DNA from: Muribaculaceae bacterium
GTDB taxonomy: Bacteria; Bacteroidota; Bacteroidia; Bacteroidales; Muribaculaceae
Assembly: GCA_029062985.1 (NCBI GenBank)
Contig: JAIDPA010000150.1
Coordinates: 1 to 45,379 of the forward strand
Reading direction: 5' to 3'
DNA length: 45,379 nt
Shown one piece after another: positions 271 to 10,266 of this stretch. The notes under the pieces are model-generated. The model ran no database searches and had not been told where the DNA came from. It saw only the letters and a program-made list of their open reading frames with translations. Every line of letters begins with the position of its first letter. Position 1 is the stretch's first letter. The position numbers were made by a program, and so were the translations under genes.

Positions 271-2637
271 TTATGCTTGTTGAGGATAAAAACTGTTCCA
301 ATTAAGGGTATCTGTTGTGTTCAGAATAGGAAGAGGGCTATATAGCCAATTAGAACCTTTCTGCAAAATCACACCACCAAAAAGCGGCTGCTCAGTTGTT
401 GAGTTAATTTTGATATATTCAAGGAGAGCATTATGTTTATCAGTTGCAAATATATCACTTCCTGCACTTTTGGTATCGAAAAGATATATGTGTCCGTTCT
501 TCATGCGGATAACGAAGTCAACATAAAAAAGAGCCTTTTCGCCTCCTTCCCCCTTATGGTATTCAATGGCGTAGTTGGCTTTGCCGCTATCTCCATTCTT
601 ATACCACCAGTCAATATATTGTGAATTTGCTTCAAGGAATTCGACAAATTCCTTTTCGGGATTGGAAGCGGAGTTAAGTTGGATAAACGGCAAGAGTGCA
701 TGATTTTCTGCCGGGGCAACTTGGTTGGTTTCGGCATCATATACGCGCTGTTCCGGCACTTCCCATTTGTGCTCTTTATATACACGTGTTGCGGCTGCTT
801 TAGCGGCTGCTACCTGACGCTTACGCGCATATTTTTCAAGTGCCGTTTCAAGCAGACGGTCAAATTTAGGGCGGTTCTCGTGATAGAGCACCACTTTCTT
901 TGCATCGGTTTCGTAGATACCGAAAAAGTCAGCGATTAACTCCGTGAGGAAACTTGCAATCTTATCGGTGCGACCTTTGCGTTCAAACTGACCTCCCTTG
1001 CCGTCGATATAAGCAAGAAAAACACCATCAATCTCGCCGGAGGTGCGGGCGAATTTCGCGCGTTCCACCGTCAAGGTCTGCACTTCGTTTTGGAAGTGAA
1101 CGTCCTTAGGAATTTCAATGTTAATCGTCTTTACATTGAGACGGATTGAGTTCTGAACACGCCGACGATTTTCATTTATGGTTAAATCGTCAGTTTCGGG
1201 GAGCGGTTGGTATTCATCTTCATCGCCATGCATAGCGGCAAGTTCAGCAATAGAGAACAACCCGGCGCCCTGTTCGAGCTTCCAAAAGTCGGTCGCTGTG
1301 TCGTAAAGTACCCTACGGAAGTCGGGACCGAGATAATTACGCTCAATGTTAGGTCGCTCGGAATATACTGATTTCAGCGACACATTACAAAGATTGGCGC
1401 GGCGATGCGCGGTGAGCGTATCATTCAAGATGTAACCAGCATCAGCCGTTACTATATCTATCTTCTCTTTGGCGATGTCGGTATAGACGTAGCCGACGTT
1501 AAGCAATTCGTTAGGATAATGCCTTTGTTCCGGCATACGGAGTATTCGCCCTACGGTCTGAATAGTGAACTGATCGCTTTGGAGTTTACGGAAGATAAGC
1601 AGAACTGCTGCTCGCGGACAATCCCAGCCGAGAGCGATAGCCTCTTTGAACAAAAGAACCTGTGCGAGATTGTTGGGATTTTCAATCCCGGCAAGGTTTG
1701 ATTTCTCGTTAGAGAGCCAAACGGCGAGTTTACCGTTTTCTTCGGTAATATCGCACATATATTTAAGGTAAGTCTTGACCTGCTCGGCTACCTTTTCATC
1801 TTCCGTAGTCATTGACTCTTTCTTGTCGTTGGGAAGTTGAATCAGAAGCAGAGGATTGATGTAAACACCCTCGGCTTTATAAGCCTCGGCTATTTGGTTG
1901 CGCTTTTCGAGTGCTATTTTTATAAGGCGCTCGTTGAGTGCAGTTTCATTTTCGGTGCTTCTAACCTCTATTTCAGGGTTAAGCACCACCTCTTTCTTGA
2001 TCATCTCGGCTGCTATCACATCCTGACGATACACTTTTGTTCGCTCGTCCGGGAAGGCGGTTTTTGGAGTAGCCGAGATGCGCAGTTCAACTGTGGGATT
2101 GATTCGCTCAAGCACCGCCTTTGTCTTGTCGGCAGTGTTTGACCAGAACATGTGTTCCTCGTCGATCACTGCGACAATGGGTAAGCCCAGTTCTTCTTGT
2201 GTGCGTCGGGTTATCTCATATAACGATGCACTGCTCTCACTATCTCGCACCATTATATTTTTCTCCTTATTGACGCTCTCCCAATTTACAAACAGTATCT
2301 CGCCCGGTTGAATACCCTCGCTTTGGTCAAGTTCGTCAAACATCACCGGGGTAAGTTTTCTGGTTTCTCCGAAAGCCCCTTTGAGGCTCATGTAACTTTG
2401 GAGATGCAGTTTACGGGGAGCAAACCATATGAAGGCGCACTCCTTGAAACGGCTGTCGCCGCGTGTGCGTAGTTCGTCAACTATATTGGCAAGCGTCTGA
2501 CAGGCCATTACGGTTTTTCCGGCACCTGTTGGAGCCTCGAAAACAATCTTACGTCTGGAGCCTCCGAGGTTAAGCAACTTAATGGTCTTGTCGGTGAGTT
2601 CGCTGATTGCGTCCTGTTGATATATCAGTGTTTTCAT
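271..2637 (-). CDS. Type III restriction enzyme, Res (helicase/endonuclease) subunit
   Basis: 788 aa; Walker A APTGAGKT, DEEH box, SATPKT, QTVGRILRMPEQ, C-terminal PD-(D/E)xK-like ...YVDFVIRMKNGHIYLFDTKS; overlaps mod. Confidence 0.92.
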   Translation of the reverse strand: MKTLIYQQDAISELTDKTIKLLNLGGSRRKIVFEAPTGAGKTVMACQTLANIVDELRTRGDSRFKECAFIWFAPRKLHLQSYMSLKGAFGETRKLTPVMFDELDQSEGIQPGEILFVNWESVNKEKNIMVRDSESSASLYEITRRTQEELGLPIVAVIDEEHMFWSNTADKTKAVLERINPTVELRISATPKTAFPDERTKVYRQDVIAAEMIKKEVVLNPEIEVRSTENETALNERLIKIALEKRNQIAEAYKAEGVYINPLLLIQLPNDKKESMTTEDEKVAEQVKTYLKYMCDITEENGKLAVWLSNEKSNLAGIENPNNLAQVLLFKEAIALGWDCPRAAVLLIFRKLQSDQFTIQTVGRILRMPEQRHYPNELLNVGYVYTDIAKEKIDIVTADAGYILNDTLTAHRRANLCNVSLKSVYSERPNIERNYLGPDFRRVLYDTATDFWKLEQGAGLFSIAELAAMHGDEDEYQPLPETDDLTINENRRRVQNSIRLNVKTINIEIPKDVHFQNEVQTLTVERAKFARTSGEIDGVFLAYIDGKGGQFERKGRTDKIASFLTELIADFFGIYETDAKKVVLYHENRPKFDRLLETALEKYARKRQVAAAKAAATRVYKEHKWEVPEQRVYDAETNQVAPAENHALLPFIQLNSASNPEKEFVEFLEANSQYIDWWYKNGDSGKANYAIEYHKGEGGEKALFYVDFVIRMKNGHIYLFDTKSAGSDIFATDKHNALLEYIKINSTTEQPLFGGVILQKGSNWLYSPLPILNTTDTLNWNSFYPQQA

Positions 2638-4487
2638 TCGTCGCCTCCTTCCTCTGAAAATAGTCCACCAATTTCATCATCATTTTCTATAGCGAGTGCA
2701 TCTTCTTCCTCTGATTCGAGCGGTTTACGCTTCGGTTTCGGAAGGATGCGCTTGTAAGTGTTGTAAATAGCCTGCGGTAAGGCGCAAAGTTCAACTTTGT
2801 CGTTGACCGGCTCGAAACTTGCCTCCCACGGGTCCTCACTCGGAGAGAATACATAGACCTTAATCTTCGAGTCGGTTTCCACCTTTTCTATCATCTTGAC
2901 GATTTCATCTACATATCGTTCGTCATATATAATGAGCATTTTCTTATTGCCATGCTCGAAGTAACGATATATGTTTTTGAAGGTCGGCAGACCGGCAAAA
3001 GTCTTCTTCTCTGCATAAAGGTTTTCCTTGATGCAGAGCATATCGGTAGAGAGTTGAACTAAGCAACGCATATTTTTGGTGGAGCGACTGCGTCCTACAA
3101 AGTCAGTGCGATAGTAGCGGAGATTATTGTTGTGAAGTCCCTCTACGTACTCGCCATTCGGTTTCGTATAGCCCTCGATAACACGCTTGTTTCGCTCGTA
3201 AGTAACATTCTCGCAGATACCATTTTCATTGTTGGTGCAGAGAATACATGTACGATTACCTCCATCTTCGGCATTAAGTTGCATGACAGCGTGAAGCGTA
3301 GTGCCTGAACCTGCGAAGAAGTCAATAACGGTAACCGCTTTATTGAAATAGCTATTTGCTAATATCAATTTTTTAACCAAATTTACTGGTTTAGAATATT
3401 GGAATGGTCTATCTGTTGCAAAAACTTCTTTTAGAAGTTCATAGGCATCTTCATTTGTAGCACCTTCTTCTCGTCCGTCTATAAATGAGGGCATTGCTTT
3501 AATGGATTCATTATTATGCCGTATGACACGAACTTGGAAATTTTTAGTGTTAACAATGACCTCAGTGCCATTTTTTAGTTCTTGTTCAAGAAATTCTTGA
3601 CCCCATACAAAAGGTGCTTTTATTTTTACTGGAGTAATAAATGTTCCTCCTTTAGCAATTACATCTTCTATAAGTTCGCTCGCACTCGTACCTACACCAT
3701 AAACACCTTTTTTATATACTCCATCAGGGAGTTTTGTCTTAATTATATTTGGAGGGAAAGTAAGAACTTTAGCAGTATTGGTTCTTTTAATAATAGGTTG
3801 CGATTCACTATTCCTGGGTAACCCACCAAATAACTGAATGTTTGGATTGCGGGTATAAATCAGGATATATTCTGTTAGAGATACGACTTTATTAGAAAGA
3901 AAAGATCCTTTTCTTTTCTTAAACCAGACCAATTGACCTACAAACTTATTCCCACCAAATCCGTAATCAGGATCATCGCAAAGAAGTTTCAAATTGGCTT
4001 GTTCGTTATCATCTATGGAGATGAATATAACGCCATTTTCACTAAGTAGTTTTTTTGCAATGCGGAGACGTTTAGACATAAACGACAGCCATTTTGAATG
4101 ACGGTAGCTATCCTCGTTATCAACGTAAGAGTCGTTATAGACGAAGTCTTTGTTGCCAGTATTATAAGGAGGATCTATATAGATTACGTCGATTTTCCCT
4201 GCGTGGGTGTACGCGAGGGTGGCAAGGGCTTCGAGGTTGTCCCCCTCGATTAGAATATGGTTAGGCGCATCAGGACCCGCCTCAGTCAATGCACGGTCTT
4301 TATCCTCTACAAGTATAGGAAGCTCTTCGCGTAGACGTTCCTCCACGGCTTCCGGTTTATCCTCCCATACAAGTCCGTAAGTTTTATGTTCGCGCAATAG
4401 TCCGAGAAGAGCAGAACGTTCATCATCTGTAAGTCCCTTAATAGTCTTTATACGCTCAATCAGTTTGTGTCGGTCAGTCGCTTTCAT
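2634..4487 (-). CDS. Type III DNA-methyltransferase, Mod subunit (beta-class N6-adenine)
   Basis: 617 aa; DPPYNTGNKDF catalytic motif followed later by DFFAGSGTT SAM motif; operonic with res. Confidence 0.93.
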   Translation of the reverse strand: MKATDRHKLIERIKTIKGLTDDERSALLGLLREHKTYGLVWEDKPEAVEERLREELPILVEDKDRALTEAGPDAPNHILIEGDNLEALATLAYTHAGKIDVIYIDPPYNTGNKDFVYNDSYVDNEDSYRHSKWLSFMSKRLRIAKKLLSENGVIFISIDDNEQANLKLLCDDPDYGFGGNKFVGQLVWFKKRKGSFLSNKVVSLTEYILIYTRNPNIQLFGGLPRNSESQPIIKRTNTAKVLTFPPNIIKTKLPDGVYKKGVYGVGTSASELIEDVIAKGGTFITPVKIKAPFVWGQEFLEQELKNGTEVIVNTKNFQVRVIRHNNESIKAMPSFIDGREEGATNEDAYELLKEVFATDRPFQYSKPVNLVKKLILANSYFNKAVTVIDFFAGSGTTLHAVMQLNAEDGGNRTCILCTNNENGICENVTYERNKRVIEGYTKPNGEYVEGLHNNNLRYYRTDFVGRSRSTKNMRCLVQLSTDMLCIKENLYAEKKTFAGLPTFKNIYRYFEHGNKKMLIIYDERYVDEIVKMIEKVETDSKIKVYVFSPSEDPWEASFEPVNDKVELCALPQAIYNTYKRILPKPKRKPLESEEEDALAIENDDEIGGLFSEEGGDE

Positions 4488-4526: not shown

Positions 4527-4776
4527 CTGGCAGGTTTATAAAAAAGACGTGAGAGTCTGTACTTCGCATATCTGTTCAATAGTGGTACCTGCCAGGGAAA
4601 CCCTTACAACCAGATTAGCTTTTCGAGACCTCACGCCGGTATATAACTATCCCAAACCCACTCCATGCCAATGAAGGCACAGAATGAGCCGGATAGGTAA
4701 ATACATACCCGTGAGCATCTACTTTAGCATTATTCCTGGTTGTAAATTCAAAAACTGGCAGGTTTTCTATTGAACA
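4527..4776 (-). ncRNA. Structured RNA element/leader upstream of mod
   Basis: Nested exact complements: TGTTCAATAG 4573-4582/CTATTGAACA 4767-4776; CCTGCCAG 4588-4595/CTGGCAGG 4755-4762; TTACAACCAG 4604-4613/CTGGTTGTAA 4736-4745; CTCACG 4630-4635/CGTGAG 4710-4715; GGTAT 4638-4642/ATACC 4705-4709; CTATCC 4647-4652/GGATAG 4691-4696; TGCC/GGCA hairpin 4666-4679. Confidence 0.7.
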
Positions 4777-4843
4777 AGAATAAAGCGCGAGTAAACGCCT
4801 TTTACATTAATTAAACTCCCACCACGTTTCCTCTCTCGAAACC

Positions 4844-4900
4844 CGTCGGCGTGAGTCTTTCCGCAAAGTTAATAACTTTCCCCCATTTTACCCCCAAAAT
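4844..4900 (-). repeat. Shared promoter repeat, copy A (upstream of RNA element and mod/res)
   Basis: GGCGTGAGTCTTTCCGCAAAGTTAATAACTTTCCCCCATTTTACCCCC; minus strand carries TAACTTTG (-7 TAnnTTTG). Confidence 0.85.
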
Positions 4901-5012
4901 ACCTCGGAAAATATCTCCTTAATTTCTTCCTTTTCTCAATTATAGACGTGTTCTTACCGGAAACCAAATAAAAATTACTAATTTTTTGACCTTTTATAAA
5001 AATTTCAATGAA

Positions 5013-5047
5013 AATTAGACAATTTTTGATGAAAAATTTGTCTAATT
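5013..5047. repeat. Near-perfect inverted repeat
   Basis: AATTAGACAATTTTT-GATG-AAAAATTTGTCTAATT (one-nt bulge). Confidence 0.8.
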
Positions 5048-5068
5048 AAAAAAAAAATCTCAATTTTG
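5037..5068 (+). promoter_or_regulatory. Bacteroidetes-type promoter
   Basis: TTTG (5037-5040), 20-nt spacer, CAATTTTG (5061-5068), one mismatch to TAnnTTTG. Confidence 0.5.
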
Positions 5069-5073
5069 CATTT

Positions 5074-5147
5074 GAAAAGCGCTTCATTAACCGAAAGGCT
5101 ACGTTTGACCGTAGTTGATTAGATGTAGGTTAATTGAGCGTTTTTTT
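5074..5147 (+). ncRNA. Candidate small RNA / terminator hairpin
   Basis: CGCTtcATTAACC (5080-5092) pairs with GGTTAATtgAGCG (5128-5140), then T7; inner hairpin CTACG-tttgac-CGTAG (5099-5114); promoter just upstream. Confidence 0.5.
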
Positions 5148-5970
5148 ATGGCTTTGCCTGTGAATAATCGCGACAATAATTACTTGGTTTAAATGACCAA
5201 TGCCGGTAAGGATATGTCCATTTATCTTTATATGACTGAATCCCCGTACTTACGCCTATATTGAAATTAGGTTTCAATTCATATATTTTTGAGAGAATGT
5301 ATTTATAAAGTTTTTCTTTTAAAACAGTGCGTTTCCCTCTTTTTCCGGTATCCGGTTGCTTGATTTTATGTTTATTATTGAGTCGGAAACACATTGCACC
5401 TAAAATAAGATCCAACAATTGTAAAGGAAGATGCTTGGATGAATCCACTTCAATAATATCATTCTCTTCAATTCGTATCTTATTAGCTTTAAAATTTACA
5501 TCGTTATTAAGATTAAGTATGTATTTCTTGAATTGTTCTACCTGAGAACCTCTTGCAGGAATATCGTCAATATATAACCTTACTCTCCTTTCATTCTCCG
5601 GCCAATCACAATATTTTAGACCAAATCCATGTTTTATGAATTCATAATAAAGAATTGTGAACTCATTTTCTTTGTGTCCTTCTGTAAGATAAACAGCCTT
5701 AAATTGATTGTTATGAAAGAAGATCCTTATCTTGGCATATCCTTTTTTTAGAATGTCAAAAATAAAGTCAACGATTCTAATATATTTTTCATAAGTGTAA
5801 CCATTAACCTTTTGCCATTTAATCTCCTCCTTAATACCTATTTCCTCACAAAGCTGAGTCAGATTAGAAATTATCTCCTCATAGTAGATACTATTTATAA
5901 GAATCCCACCATAAAAATTTGAAAAGTAGGCTCCTTTCTTATCACTTTCGTCTAACCAAATATATATCAT
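5146..5970 (-). CDS. DUF3800 domain-containing protein
   Basis: 274 aa; N-terminal MIYIWLDESDKKGAYFSNFYGGILI, internal YIDD and LQLLDLILGA typical of DUF3800. Confidence 0.75.
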   Translation of the reverse strand: MIYIWLDESDKKGAYFSNFYGGILINSIYYEEIISNLTQLCEEIGIKEEIKWQKVNGYTYEKYIRIVDFIFDILKKGYAKIRIFFHNNQFKAVYLTEGHKENEFTILYYEFIKHGFGLKYCDWPENERRVRLYIDDIPARGSQVEQFKKYILNLNNDVNFKANKIRIEENDIIEVDSSKHLPLQLLDLILGAMCFRLNNKHKIKQPDTGKRGKRTVLKEKLYKYILSKIYELKPNFNIGVSTGIQSYKDKWTYPYRHWSFKPSNYCRDYSQAKP

Positions 5971-6070
5971 TTTTTTATCCTTTTAAAGGTGTTCCCAAAC
6001 CTCAAATAATTTCTTCGAAGGTAGTATTACCATTCTAAAACATAAAATGACTAAATTTATTATAACTCTC

Positions 6071-6126
6071 CGTCGGCGTGAGTCTTTCCACAAAGTTAAT
6101 AACTTTCCCCCATTTTACCCCAAAAA
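6071..6126 (-). repeat. Shared promoter repeat, copy B (upstream of DUF3800 gene)
   Basis: CGTCGGCGTGAGTCTTTCCACAAAGTTAATAACTTTCCCCCATTTTACCCC. Confidence 0.85.
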
Positions 6127-6207
6127 ACAAAAAAATAATAGCAAGTTTTAATTATCATCTGCTCTGAAAGATTCTTACAGCGAGTAATTTATTATCACGG
6201 TCAAGAG

Positions 6208-6528
6208 TCATAATAAAATAGCATCGTTTTGTACATTCATATAGAATGCGGTATGTTCCTCAGCAGCCCATTCGCTTTTTGTATACAGCACCGGAGTGAT
6301 TTGTTCTCCAAGTTTCCATCCTATTTCAGTGAAAGGGTACGCATATTTCTCAAACGCATTTTCAATATCCACACCATCTTCCGCAACAATCAAAAGATCC
6401 CAATCAGACGAATTCACAGCCTCCCCTCTTGCTCGTGAACCATATAGATATACAGAAACCTTGGAATCAACAAAAAGTTCTTTTGCTAAATCCCTTATTG
6501 CAGTCAATATTTTATTAAAACGAGTCAA
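6208..6528 (-). CDS. MNT-type nucleotidyltransferase-domain protein
   Basis: YLYGSRARGEAVNSSDWDLLIV motif (GSxxxG...SDxDLL). Confidence 0.85.
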   Translation of the reverse strand: MTRFNKILTAIRDLAKELFVDSKVSVYLYGSRARGEAVNSSDWDLLIVAEDGVDIENAFEKYAYPFTEIGWKLGEQITPVLYTKSEWAAEEHTAFYMNVQNDAILL

Positions 6529-6571
6529 AATAAGATGTCATTTGAGTTATTCCTCCTACCACATAAATGGA

Positions 6572-6630
6572 GCCGGCGTGAGTCTTTCCGCAAAGTTAAT
6601 AACTTTCCCTCATTTTACCCCCAAAATACC
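6572..6630 (-). repeat. Shared promoter repeat, copy C (upstream of MNT gene)
   Basis: GCCGGCGTGAGTCTTTCCGCAAAGTTAATAACTTTCCCTCATTTTACCCCC. Confidence 0.85.
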
Positions 6631-6644
6631 CAGGGAAAAAAGTT

Positions 6645-7016
6645 CTATATCAGACCTTGTTCTTTACATCTTTCCTCATATTCCTCAATAAGAATTAAAA
6701 TATCTTTCTTCAATTCCGGAATATGACGTATCACTAATCCCCACAGGAACTCCGGACGAACAGAATCATAGCCATGTATGATTCTATTTCTGGTATTTAT
6801 TATTTCCTTGGCATGCGGCAACGGGAAATCGGTTTTAATCTTCAATATCCTATTTATAGCCTCTCCCATAATTTCTGTTTTTCTTTCAACAGCACTAATT
6901 CGGAGAATATCCTTCTCAAACACATCAAATCTTTTGGGATAATCTTCAAAAAAACTTTCAACTGCCCTAATGGCATCAAGCACATCATTAAGATAAACTA
7001 AAATATAATCATCCAT
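6645..7016 (-). CDS. HepT-like HEPN ribonuclease toxin (DUF86)
   Basis: RNRIIHGYD (Rx4-6HxY) motif; overlaps MntA gene. Confidence 0.85.
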   Translation of the reverse strand: MDDYILVYLNDVLDAIRAVESFFEDYPKRFDVFEKDILRISAVERKTEIMGEAINRILKIKTDFPLPHAKEIINTRNRIIHGYDSVRPEFLWGLVIRHIPELKKDILILIEEYEERCKEQGLI

Positions 7017-7314
7017 AAATCACTTTTTTTCTCTTGTCTATCATTTTTTTAAAGATTGGATTCAATCGCTTTCCATCTTCAATAAGATCCACCTTACGAT
7101 TAAACAGCTTTTCTAATGCGTAGCGAAGGGAAAAATAATTTGCAACATAATCAAATTTATCCGGATCCTGAGGCTCAAAATCTACAAGCAAATCAACATC
7201 ACTTCCTTCATTGAATCTTTCTGTAAGAATAGATCCAAAGACAGCAAGCGATCTGACCTTATGTTTCCGACATAAGTCAAAAATACGCTGTATGTTTAAT
7301 TCTATCAATCGCAT
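7009..7314 (-). CDS. MntA-like nucleotidyltransferase antitoxin
   Basis: LAVFGSILTERFNEGSDVDLLVDF; directly upstream of and overlapping HepT. Confidence 0.87.
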   Translation of the reverse strand: MRLIELNIQRIFDLCRKHKVRSLAVFGSILTERFNEGSDVDLLVDFEPQDPDKFDYVANYFSLRYALEKLFNRKVDLIEDGKRLNPIFKKMIDKRKKVIYG

Positions 7315-7332
7315 AGTATGCTAATTCCCCTT

Positions 7333-7390
7333 CAGCGTGAGTCTTTCCGCAAAGTTAATAACTTTCCACCATTTTAACCCCAAATACCTT
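7333..7390 (-). repeat. Shared promoter repeat, copy D (upstream of mntA-hepT)
   Basis: CAGCGTGAGTCTTTCCGCAAAGTTAATAACTTTCCACCATTTTAACCCCAAATACC. Confidence 0.85.
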
Positions 7391-7470
7391 GAAAATTAAA
7401 AACAATTTTACTCAAAAACTATAAAACACCATTTTTTAAATGCAAAACTTGTATCCGTTGCAAAATAAAA

Positions 7471-7500: not shown

Positions 7501-7910
7501 ATGCTTAATCTGCCCCTCATACTAAAACCTATACCCCTCCTCTCTCTCAAAATCCGAACGTTGAACCAGGGGGTATCTCTCTTGCAAAGTGAACCGGACC
7601 AAACTCCGAACCAACTCCGTAAACCTCTGGAATATAGCCGGTAAGATGATATAAGGAAAGAAAATCTTGGTCCACAAGTGGACCATAACTACATCTTTAG
7701 GAAAGAAAAAATCAACTTTTGCGATTGTAAGTAACTCAAATCCCTCCCATCCGCTTTGCTATAATTGCGAAAGTAAAAAATTCAACTAATACATAAATCC
7801 TAACAACCATAAAGGGATCTTATTGCCGACACCATATTCAAGGTTATCTGCCAAGACGCTGCGATATTTAGTAAACACGTTCCATAACTTACTAATTTTC
7901 GCAATGATAT

Positions 7911-7965
7911 AAAAATCTTTCTTTCTAAAGAAAGATTTTTACTGATTTTTTTCTTTCCAAAGAAA
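7911..7965 (+). terminator. Tandem hairpins, possible terminator
   Basis: AAAAATCTTTCTTT-ct-AAAGAAAGATTTTT (7911-7940) then TTTCTTT-cc-AAAGAAA (7950-7965). Confidence 0.5.
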
Positions 7966-8071
7966 GATTTTTATAATAATCAGACTGTCAGAGCTCTATA
8001 TCTATATTTCTGTTCAATTACTTTAATTTCTAACAAATCTCAAAAAACATATCTCTAAGGGATGCTTATAC

Positions 8072-8857: not shown

Positions 8858-10156
8858 ATGCCTTCTATACTTATAAAAAATGCCAACGTCTGGACCGAAG
8901 GACGCTTCATCAATGCCGACGTGGAGATAAGAAACGGTGTCGTTACCGCTCTTGACCCCGTTGCCTCCTCCCCTCTAAATTCCTCCCGTCATCTCCCTCC
9001 GTCTGCCGAAATCATCAATGCCAAGGGCATGTATATCCTGCCCGGACTCGTAGACATGCACGTCCATTTCCGCGAACCCGGCTATTCATATAAGGAAACT
9101 ATCAAGACAGGCTCCGAAGCTGCCGCTGCCGGAGGATTCACAACTGTCTGCACCATGCCCAACCTGAATCCAGCCCCCGACTCTCCCGAGAACCTCCTGA
9201 AGCAACTGGAAATAATACGTCGTGATGCAGTTGTCGAAGTGCTTCCTTACGCTACAATCACACGCCTGCGTATGGGCAAGGAACTTGTCGACTATGAGGC
9301 TGTCGCTGCTGATGTCTGCGGTTTCTCCGACGACGGCACCGGCGTGCAGGATGATGAAGTCATGCGTCGCGCAATGACTGAAATCGCAAAAACCGGAAAG
9401 ATTCTTGCTGCCCACTGTGAAGTGGAGGCTCTCCTCAACAAAGGGTATATCCACGACGGAACATACGCTCAGAAAAACAACCACCGCGGAATATGTTCGG
9501 AATCGGAATGGAAGGAAGTGGAACGCGATATAAAATTGGCTGAAGAAACGGGCTGCCGTCTCCACGTCTGCCACATATCCACCAAAGAGAGCGTAGCATT
9601 GATTCGCGATGCGAAAGCACGCGGAGTCAGAGTCACCTGCGAGACGGGTCCGCATTATCTGACTTTCTGCGATGAAGATCTGAAGGAAGATGGTCGCTTC
9701 AAGATGAATCCTCCTATCAGAAGCCGTGCTGACCGCGATGCCCTGCGTGAGGGAGTAGCCGACGGAACTATCGACGTCATTTCTACCGACCATGCTCCTC
9801 ATTCCGAAACAGAGAAAGCTAAGGGGCTTGAGAAAAGCGCGATGGGAGTGGTCGGTCTTGAAACCTCTTTCGCCGCAGTCTACACGACAATGGTGAAACC
9901 GGGTCTTATTTCCATGGAGCGTCTTGCCCATCTGATGTCGACCAACGCACGTGCCATCCTCGGTCTCCCTGCCGCCGGCGGTATAAAACCCGGAGTGCCT
10001 GCCGACCTCACACTGCTTTCCGGCGCCGGCACATCAATCGTCGACCCCCTGACCTTCCGCTCAATGGGGAAAGCCACACCCTATGCCGGACTCGAACTTT
10101 CCGGACACGTCGCTGCCACAATGTGCGCCGGGGAATGGGTCTTTAATAGGCTTTAG
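8858..10156 (+). CDS. pyrC: Dihydroorotase
   Basis: 432 aa; DMHVHFREPGYSYKE, STDHAPHS. Confidence 0.95.
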   Translation: MPSILIKNANVWTEGRFINADVEIRNGVVTALDPVASSPLNSSRHLPPSAEIINAKGMYILPGLVDMHVHFREPGYSYKETIKTGSEAAAAGGFTTVCTMPNLNPAPDSPENLLKQLEIIRRDAVVEVLPYATITRLRMGKELVDYEAVAADVCGFSDDGTGVQDDEVMRRAMTEIAKTGKILAAHCEVEALLNKGYIHDGTYAQKNNHRGICSESEWKEVERDIKLAEETGCRLHVCHISTKESVALIRDAKARGVRVTCETGPHYLTFCDEDLKEDGRFKMNPPIRSRADRDALREGVADGTIDVISTDHAPHSETEKAKGLEKSAMGVVGLETSFAAVYTTMVKPGLISMERLAHLMSTNARAILGLPAAGGIKPGVPADLTLLSGAGTSIVDPLTFRSMGKATPYAGLELSGHVAATMCAGEWVFNRL

Positions 10157-10266
10157 GCTCAAGGCTTTAGGCTTTAGGCTCAAGGCTTTAGGCTCAAGGA
10201 TTTAGGCTCGAGCCTAATGCCTAATGCCTAATGCCTAATGCCTAACACCTACAGCCTAATGCCTAA
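10147..10266. repeat. Convergent GGCTTTA/GCCTAAT tandem-repeat array centred on a palindrome
   Basis: GGCTTTAGGCTCAA units, perfect palindrome TTAGGCTCGAGCCTAA (10202-10217), then AATGCCT units. Confidence 0.9.

Follow-up and report, generated by a model that had tools for sequence, protein, structure and literature searches.

A repeated promoter in a Muribaculaceae genome marks the start of a predicted family of structured, switch-like leader RNAs in Bacteroidales

The window analysed here comprises 45,379 nucleotides from a Muribaculaceae bacterium (GenBank assembly GCA_029062985.1, contig JAIDPA010000150.1), and carries on its minus strand a type III restriction-modification pair (mod and res), a DUF3800 gene, a lone nucleotidyltransferase (MNT) gene and an mntA-hepT toxin-antitoxin pair (Table 1). 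The original prediction held that a ~50-bp minus-strand repeat occurs four times, each copy ahead of a different defence or toxin-antitoxin unit, and both statements stand: the copies are 92-100% identical to copy 1, their 32-nt core shows 0-1 mismatches per copy against a shuffled-sequence expectation of 0 matches, and the Pfam gene calls agree with the proposed units. No fifth copy was found in the genome (a draft of 323 contigs, 86% complete); the next best of the 13 hits (E 0.045) matches the generic -7 region alone. PADLOC matched 0 of 10 ordinary window genes. Among other features of the window, the lone MNT gene has no HepT of its own and comes immediately after the complete mntA-hepT pair in the direction of transcription; upstream of that pair, positions 7908-7975 contain two direct repeats of 24 nt and an inverted repeat of 26 nt (TTTCTTTCTAAAGAAAGATTTTTA); and a short tandem repeat, AGGCTTTAGGCTC, occupies positions 10148-10231, between a dihydroorotase-like gene and a downstream gene which is carA-like by eye.

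Table 1. Genes, repeat copies and predicted RNA elements in the window
Feature	Position	Strand	Evidence or remark
Type III res	271..2637	-	PADLOC REase_III
Type III mod, first gene behind the leader	2634..4487	-	Pfam N6_N4_Mtase, PADLOC MTase_III
Complete predicted leader RNA (~320 nt) ahead of type III mod	4540..4860	-	Fold z -8.25; profile match E 6.5e-65; covariation
Strand d (AGACTCTCACGTC), then U-run; putative terminator hairpin with c	4540..4558	-	U-run in 132/142 homologues
R2 (CTGGCAGG) and R1 (CTATTGAAC), 3' strands	4574..4595	-	
Strand c (CGGCGTGAGGTCTC), common to three mutually exclusive helices (with a, 1 or d)	4625..4638	-	
Strand 1 (GTAGATGCTCACGG); partner of strand c in the rod (antiterminator-like) state	4709..4722	-	
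Rod helices R1 (GTTCAATAG) and R2 (CCTGCCAG), 5' strands	4755..4775	-	Hypervariable sequence, pairing retained
P2 hairpin (AAAGGCGTTTACTCGCGCTTT)	4782..4803	-	Most sequence-conserved part
Strand a (GACTCACGCCG), the repeat's conserved 5'UTR; partner is strand b (P1) or strand c	4847..4857	-	
Repeat copy 1, promoter and predicted first ~22 nt of the leader RNA	4843..4903	-	-7 box TAACTTTG at 4871-4864
DUF3800 gene	5146..5970	-	Pfam PF12686
Repeat copy 2, promoter and strand a only, ahead of the DUF3800 gene	6070..6126	-	
Lone nucleotidyltransferase (MNT) gene	6208..6528	-	Pfam NTP_transf_2
Repeat copy 3, promoter and strand a only, ahead of the lone MNT gene	6574..6630	-	
mntA-hepT toxin-antitoxin pair	6645..7314	-	Pfam NTP_transf_2 and HepT-like
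Repeat copy 4, promoter and strand a only, ahead of mntA-hepT	7329..7388	-	

The promoter proposed within the repeat is also borne out. The sequence TAACTTTG fits the form TAnnTTTG, which is kept as a -7 box in 117 of the 119 leader members with a complete 5' end, and an upstream TTTG element was indeed found, 23 nt away in copy 1, slightly above the 19-20 nt of most homologues; in 74 of 117 homologous promoters a TTG stands 19-20 nt upstream of the -7 box. The family thus carries both elements of the sigma-ABfr promoter (TTTG / TAnnTTTG) described in B. fragilis and B. thetaiotaomicron, and agrees in -7 box and TTG spacing with the Bacteroides form, the difference being that the known promoter is an ordinary one and here it is joined to a leader RNA (PMC7366714). 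Transcription is predicted to start at ~4860 on the minus strand. The near-palindrome AAAGTTATTAACTTT had been read as an operator, which is unlikely given its presence in just 3 of 117 homologous promoters, all from close relatives, and a palindromic operator was rejected on this ground.

The key feature of the locus is a gap: copy 1 does not immediately precede mod but lies ~355-415 nt upstream of it, and the stretch between them is conserved in the relatives L016 and L015. Conservation beyond the -7 box had been taken as a sign of more than a generic promoter, rightly so, as the conserved 5'UTR corresponds to the first strand of a predicted RNA of ~320 nt, running on the minus strand from about 4860 to 4540. 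Its fold reaches -128.3 kcal/mol (z = -8.25 against shuffles; z = -6.96 in the L016 homologue), and its 3' end consists of a G+C-rich hairpin strand followed by TTTTTT at ~4545-4540, 53 nt before the start of mod (4487). Only copy 1 starts a complete leader; copies 2-4, ahead of DUF3800, MNT and mntA-hepT, retain the sigma-ABfr-type promoter and ~22 nt of the leader, the rest being absent. Truncated copies also exist in relatives: L054 and L015 keep ~140 nt, before a DUF4143-type ATPase, and L014 keeps the promoter alone. Since the truncation points vary (+22 nt or ~+140 nt), ordinary duplication or recombination is favoured over site-specific cassettes. Copies 2-4 would then be duplicated promoter fragments, giving their genes constitutive sigma-ABfr transcription without the switch.

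Judged from the comparative evidence, the repeat is most readily described as a promoter joined to the opening ~22 nt of a structured leader RNA of ~330 nt, which belongs to a family spread through Bacteroidales, and that the leader is a real, conserved RNA family is nearly certain. DNA searches gave leader matches in 39 of the 111 genomes of the window's genus. A covariance model restricted to the leader core matched 197/399 genomes (23/30 genera) of the window's family and 24/395 genomes (20/208 genera, several other families) in an order-wide draw; in a phylum-wide draw of 399 genomes, the window's own genome was the only match, and outside Bacteroidales 0 of the 398 other genomes drawn were matched by this model, whose sensitivity is limited. 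An iterated DNA profile collected 142 distinct, essentially full-length members, with TAnnTTTG at the 5' end in 124, a U-run at the 3' end in 132, and an open reading frame of 80 aa or more no further than 450 nt away in 131, at a median of 55 nt downstream. As the model covered the core only, the presence of both flanking parts, 5' and 3', in almost all hits provides independent support. Other leader copies in the same genome are L161 (G000:C68 36303-36416), L159 (G000:C89 2028-2141) and L163 (G000:C99 4234-4345), followed respectively by a ZorA-like operon, by a vWA-domain protein and then two phosphatase-/kinase-like ORFs (by eye), and by a PDDEXK nuclease. A known RNA family was rejected, as neither the window nor 20 homologues from the genus gave a leader match to Rfam 15 at E 1-5, and 16 wider homologues gave none at the gathering score. 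Literature searches returned no description of the leader; thousands of unnamed candidates have been listed (Fremin and Bhatt, 2021; PMC8040213), and a fragment of the leader may be among them. A tRNA/tmRNA search of the leader found none.

The secondary structure was assessed by covariation in two alignments: A1, with 40 sequences of the genus, and A4, with 49 sequences, 47 of them unused in deriving the structure and most from other genera or families. Scores were compared with those of shuffles, 0/500 of which reached the score of the rod, a:c, c:d or P1 in A1, or of the rod, a:c, c:d or P3 in A4. The rod, formed by the long nested helices R1-R4 and C1 in A1, scored 0.535 against 0.210 for shuffles and no more than 0.125 after sliding; in A4, 90% of it is paired (0.522 vs 0.208). 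The rod is hypervariable in sequence and yet keeps its pairing, as the strands of the R2 helix illustrate: CCTGCCAG/CTGGCAGG for the window, ATCTGGCA/TGCCAGAT for L067 and CTTAGGAC/GTCCTAAG for L071. P1, the local pairing of strand a with strand b, scored 0.321 vs 0.206 in A1, and P3 was 87% paired in A4 (0.384 vs 0.257). For P2, 88.9% of cells are paired in A1, and the same pairs reach 90% in A4. Pairing of strand a with strand c scored 0.295 vs 0.164 in A1 and 0.296 vs 0.231 in A4 (86.5% paired), and that of c with d 0.308 vs 0.258 in A1 and 0.334 vs 0.285 in A4 (95% paired). A global closing helix b:d, noticed in minimum-energy folds, served as control and was rejected for want of covariation (0.186 vs 0.207 shuffled), so the test is able to fail. 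The replication in A4 is strong, albeit not perfectly blind, the register of some pairs having been picked between two reference sequences using A4 itself. Across R1-R3 (4775-4742 with 4610-4574 in the window), sequence differs between leaders and pairing persists, like a private code for each leader; perhaps these codes keep the several leaders of a cell from pairing with one another.

Strand c occupies a central position: with three mutually exclusive partners (a, 1 and d), each pairing covarying in A1 and A4, the leader is built like an RNA switch. Strands 1 and d are more alike than chance would give, with z above 2 in 25 of the 40 genus sequences. Two hallmarks of an attenuator or riboswitch are found here, namely mutually exclusive antiterminator-like and terminator-like helices with covariation, and a 5' leader with its own promoter and a gene close downstream. 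On these grounds the leader is probably a cis-acting transcription attenuator or riboswitch-like leader, in which c:d with the U-run would act as intrinsic terminator, while in the antiterminated state c would be held either by strand 1, together with the rod, or by strand a. Depending on some signal (metabolite, protein or elongation state), it would determine what fraction of transcripts continues into mod-res. Equilibrium folds prefer the rod to c:d, the median difference being ~17 kcal/mol, and c:d is nearly absent from minimum-energy folds; the unliganded long RNA should thus read through, and for termination either the kinetics of co-transcriptional folding or a bound factor would be required. 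Folding order might contribute, for example if P3 formed first and held the 5' strands of the rod. P2, being the most conserved stretch, is the best candidate recognition site. A leader-peptide attenuator is an unlikely mechanism, since no short reading frame is conserved in the leader and, from a GGGTATG start, neither frame nor length is kept among homologues. It should be considered that helices using strand c could covary jointly without all being functional.

Known systems offer partial parallels. The leader shares with trp-type attenuators and SAM-I its position between promoter and coding region, a hairpin with U-run before the gene, and near-identical strands (1 and d) competing for one strand (c). 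It differs from them in having no conserved leader peptide, a rod of hypervariable sequence, a third covarying partner of c at the extreme 5' end, and accessory genes behind it instead of one metabolic pathway. DUF3800 RNA motifs and other Rfam Bacteroidetes motifs are structured RNAs ahead of accessory genes. The present leader has a similar position and there is a DUF3800 gene in the window, but the leader lacks an Rfam 15 match and the window's DUF3800 gene has the promoter fragment only.

The genes found behind the leader are diverse. First genes fall into 54 clusters, the largest comprising 37 type III mod or related methyltransferases and 17 HKD-Snf2 helicases (PADLOC C3a139), followed by surface proteins of the C10-peptidase or LRR kind (12) and one type of small protein that is apparently membrane-bound (7); ZorA, SspB, GmrSD-like, PsyrA-like, a type I methyltransferase fusion, vWA-domain, PDDEXK, SPFH and fimbrillin are single types. 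About half of the first genes are defence-related, a fraction inflated by a model built from leaders linked to restriction-modification, and among more distant members secreted and surface proteins dominate. The idea that unrelated units have a promoter and 5'UTR in common is supported, as the same element precedes many unrelated defence genes in relatives; a defence-only regulon was rejected because many downstream genes of the wider family encode secreted or surface proteins. Proteins of ~215 aa (MNPLLGSSLYDSLNRLVIGFLLSLWLF...), apparently of the membrane, stand directly behind the leader in L248, L216, L219, L231, L196, L217 and L215; the single one examined, from L248, matched neither Pfam nor PADLOC.

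A relative of the window mod is present in 22 genomes of the genus, most of them with the leader. In L265, L268, L273 and L276, genomes without the large leader, the same mod is preceded by a second conserved leader of ~150 nt with its own TAnnTTTG box (GAGATACGGCGAGAGCCGAA...GTTACAGGCTTTGGTCGGCCTTCAGATGCTA) and no Rfam match; this different leader suggests that leaders are modular regulators. An N-terminal extension of Mod tied to the leader was also considered, and rejected as an artefact of split alignments. In the relatives L055 (5734-7964), L056, L059, L060 and L063, Sp-DndD (PF20306) and a DndD/PbeC-like ATPase come after the type III mod-res, which suggests a combined type III restriction-modification and Dnd-like module.

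Other readings of the leader deserve weighing. The U-run could equally be the end of a separate non-coding RNA, and the ~330-nt molecule either a small RNA working in trans or part of the defence systems themselves (bound by protein or guide-like), placed ahead of genes by co-inheritance. Its own promoter and U-run, the very stable and compact rod, the several divergent copies per genome and the lack of any sign of leader-peptide coding fit this explanation, which we nevertheless regard as unlikely: the downstream proteins are too diverse for one RNA partner, the distance from U-run to gene is typical of leaders, and the mutually exclusive partners of strand c include the terminator strand. 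Processive antitermination, in which the folded RNA would equip RNA polymerase with a factor for reading through long accessory operons, seems doubtful. The put RNA (HK022) and LoaP-type leaders are likewise structured RNAs starting long operons, many downstream operons are long here (mod-res-DndD-like, 3.4 kb + 3.4 kb HKD-Snf2/Eco57I pairs, large LRR proteins), and the strongly conserved P2 could be the factor site; against this, the present leader has its own terminator and competing strand, a conserved 1/d switch that would be superfluous for such an element, and it also precedes short single genes (L077, L085, L252). A mobile cassette format, or a regulon under a protein operator, with nothing but the 50-bp repeat to define it, to which the four copies ahead of four units and the further truncated copies before DUF4143-type ATPases (L014, L015, L054) had lent appeal, is very improbable, given the rarity of the palindrome, the differing cut points with no fixed insertion site, and the lack of any match in phage and plasmid collections or in an IMG/VR pattern search, by which spread via phages or plasmids was also rejected.

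What is new here is thus an uncatalogued, widespread, switch-like leader RNA behind a repeated "promoter". It is conceivable, if rather unlikely, that a new riboswitch-like Bacteroidales class senses one common cue (e.g., an infection-linked nucleotide, or a phage taking over transcription) and controls in concert many unrelated defence systems and the surface proteins to which phages are exposed; under this reading, the leader of the window may in addition work in trans, its strand c pairing with the strand-a tags in the mRNA 5'UTRs of DUF3800, MNT and mntA-hepT. The absence of such a large family from Rfam means that the annotation of these leader regions should change. Little is settled about the means by which bacteria silence their many costly defence systems until these are needed; if the proposed role is true, a single structured leader ahead of type III restriction-modification, HKD-Snf2, ZorA, SspB, GmrSD and surface-protein genes would give abundant gut bacteria a shared point of control that can be put to the test.
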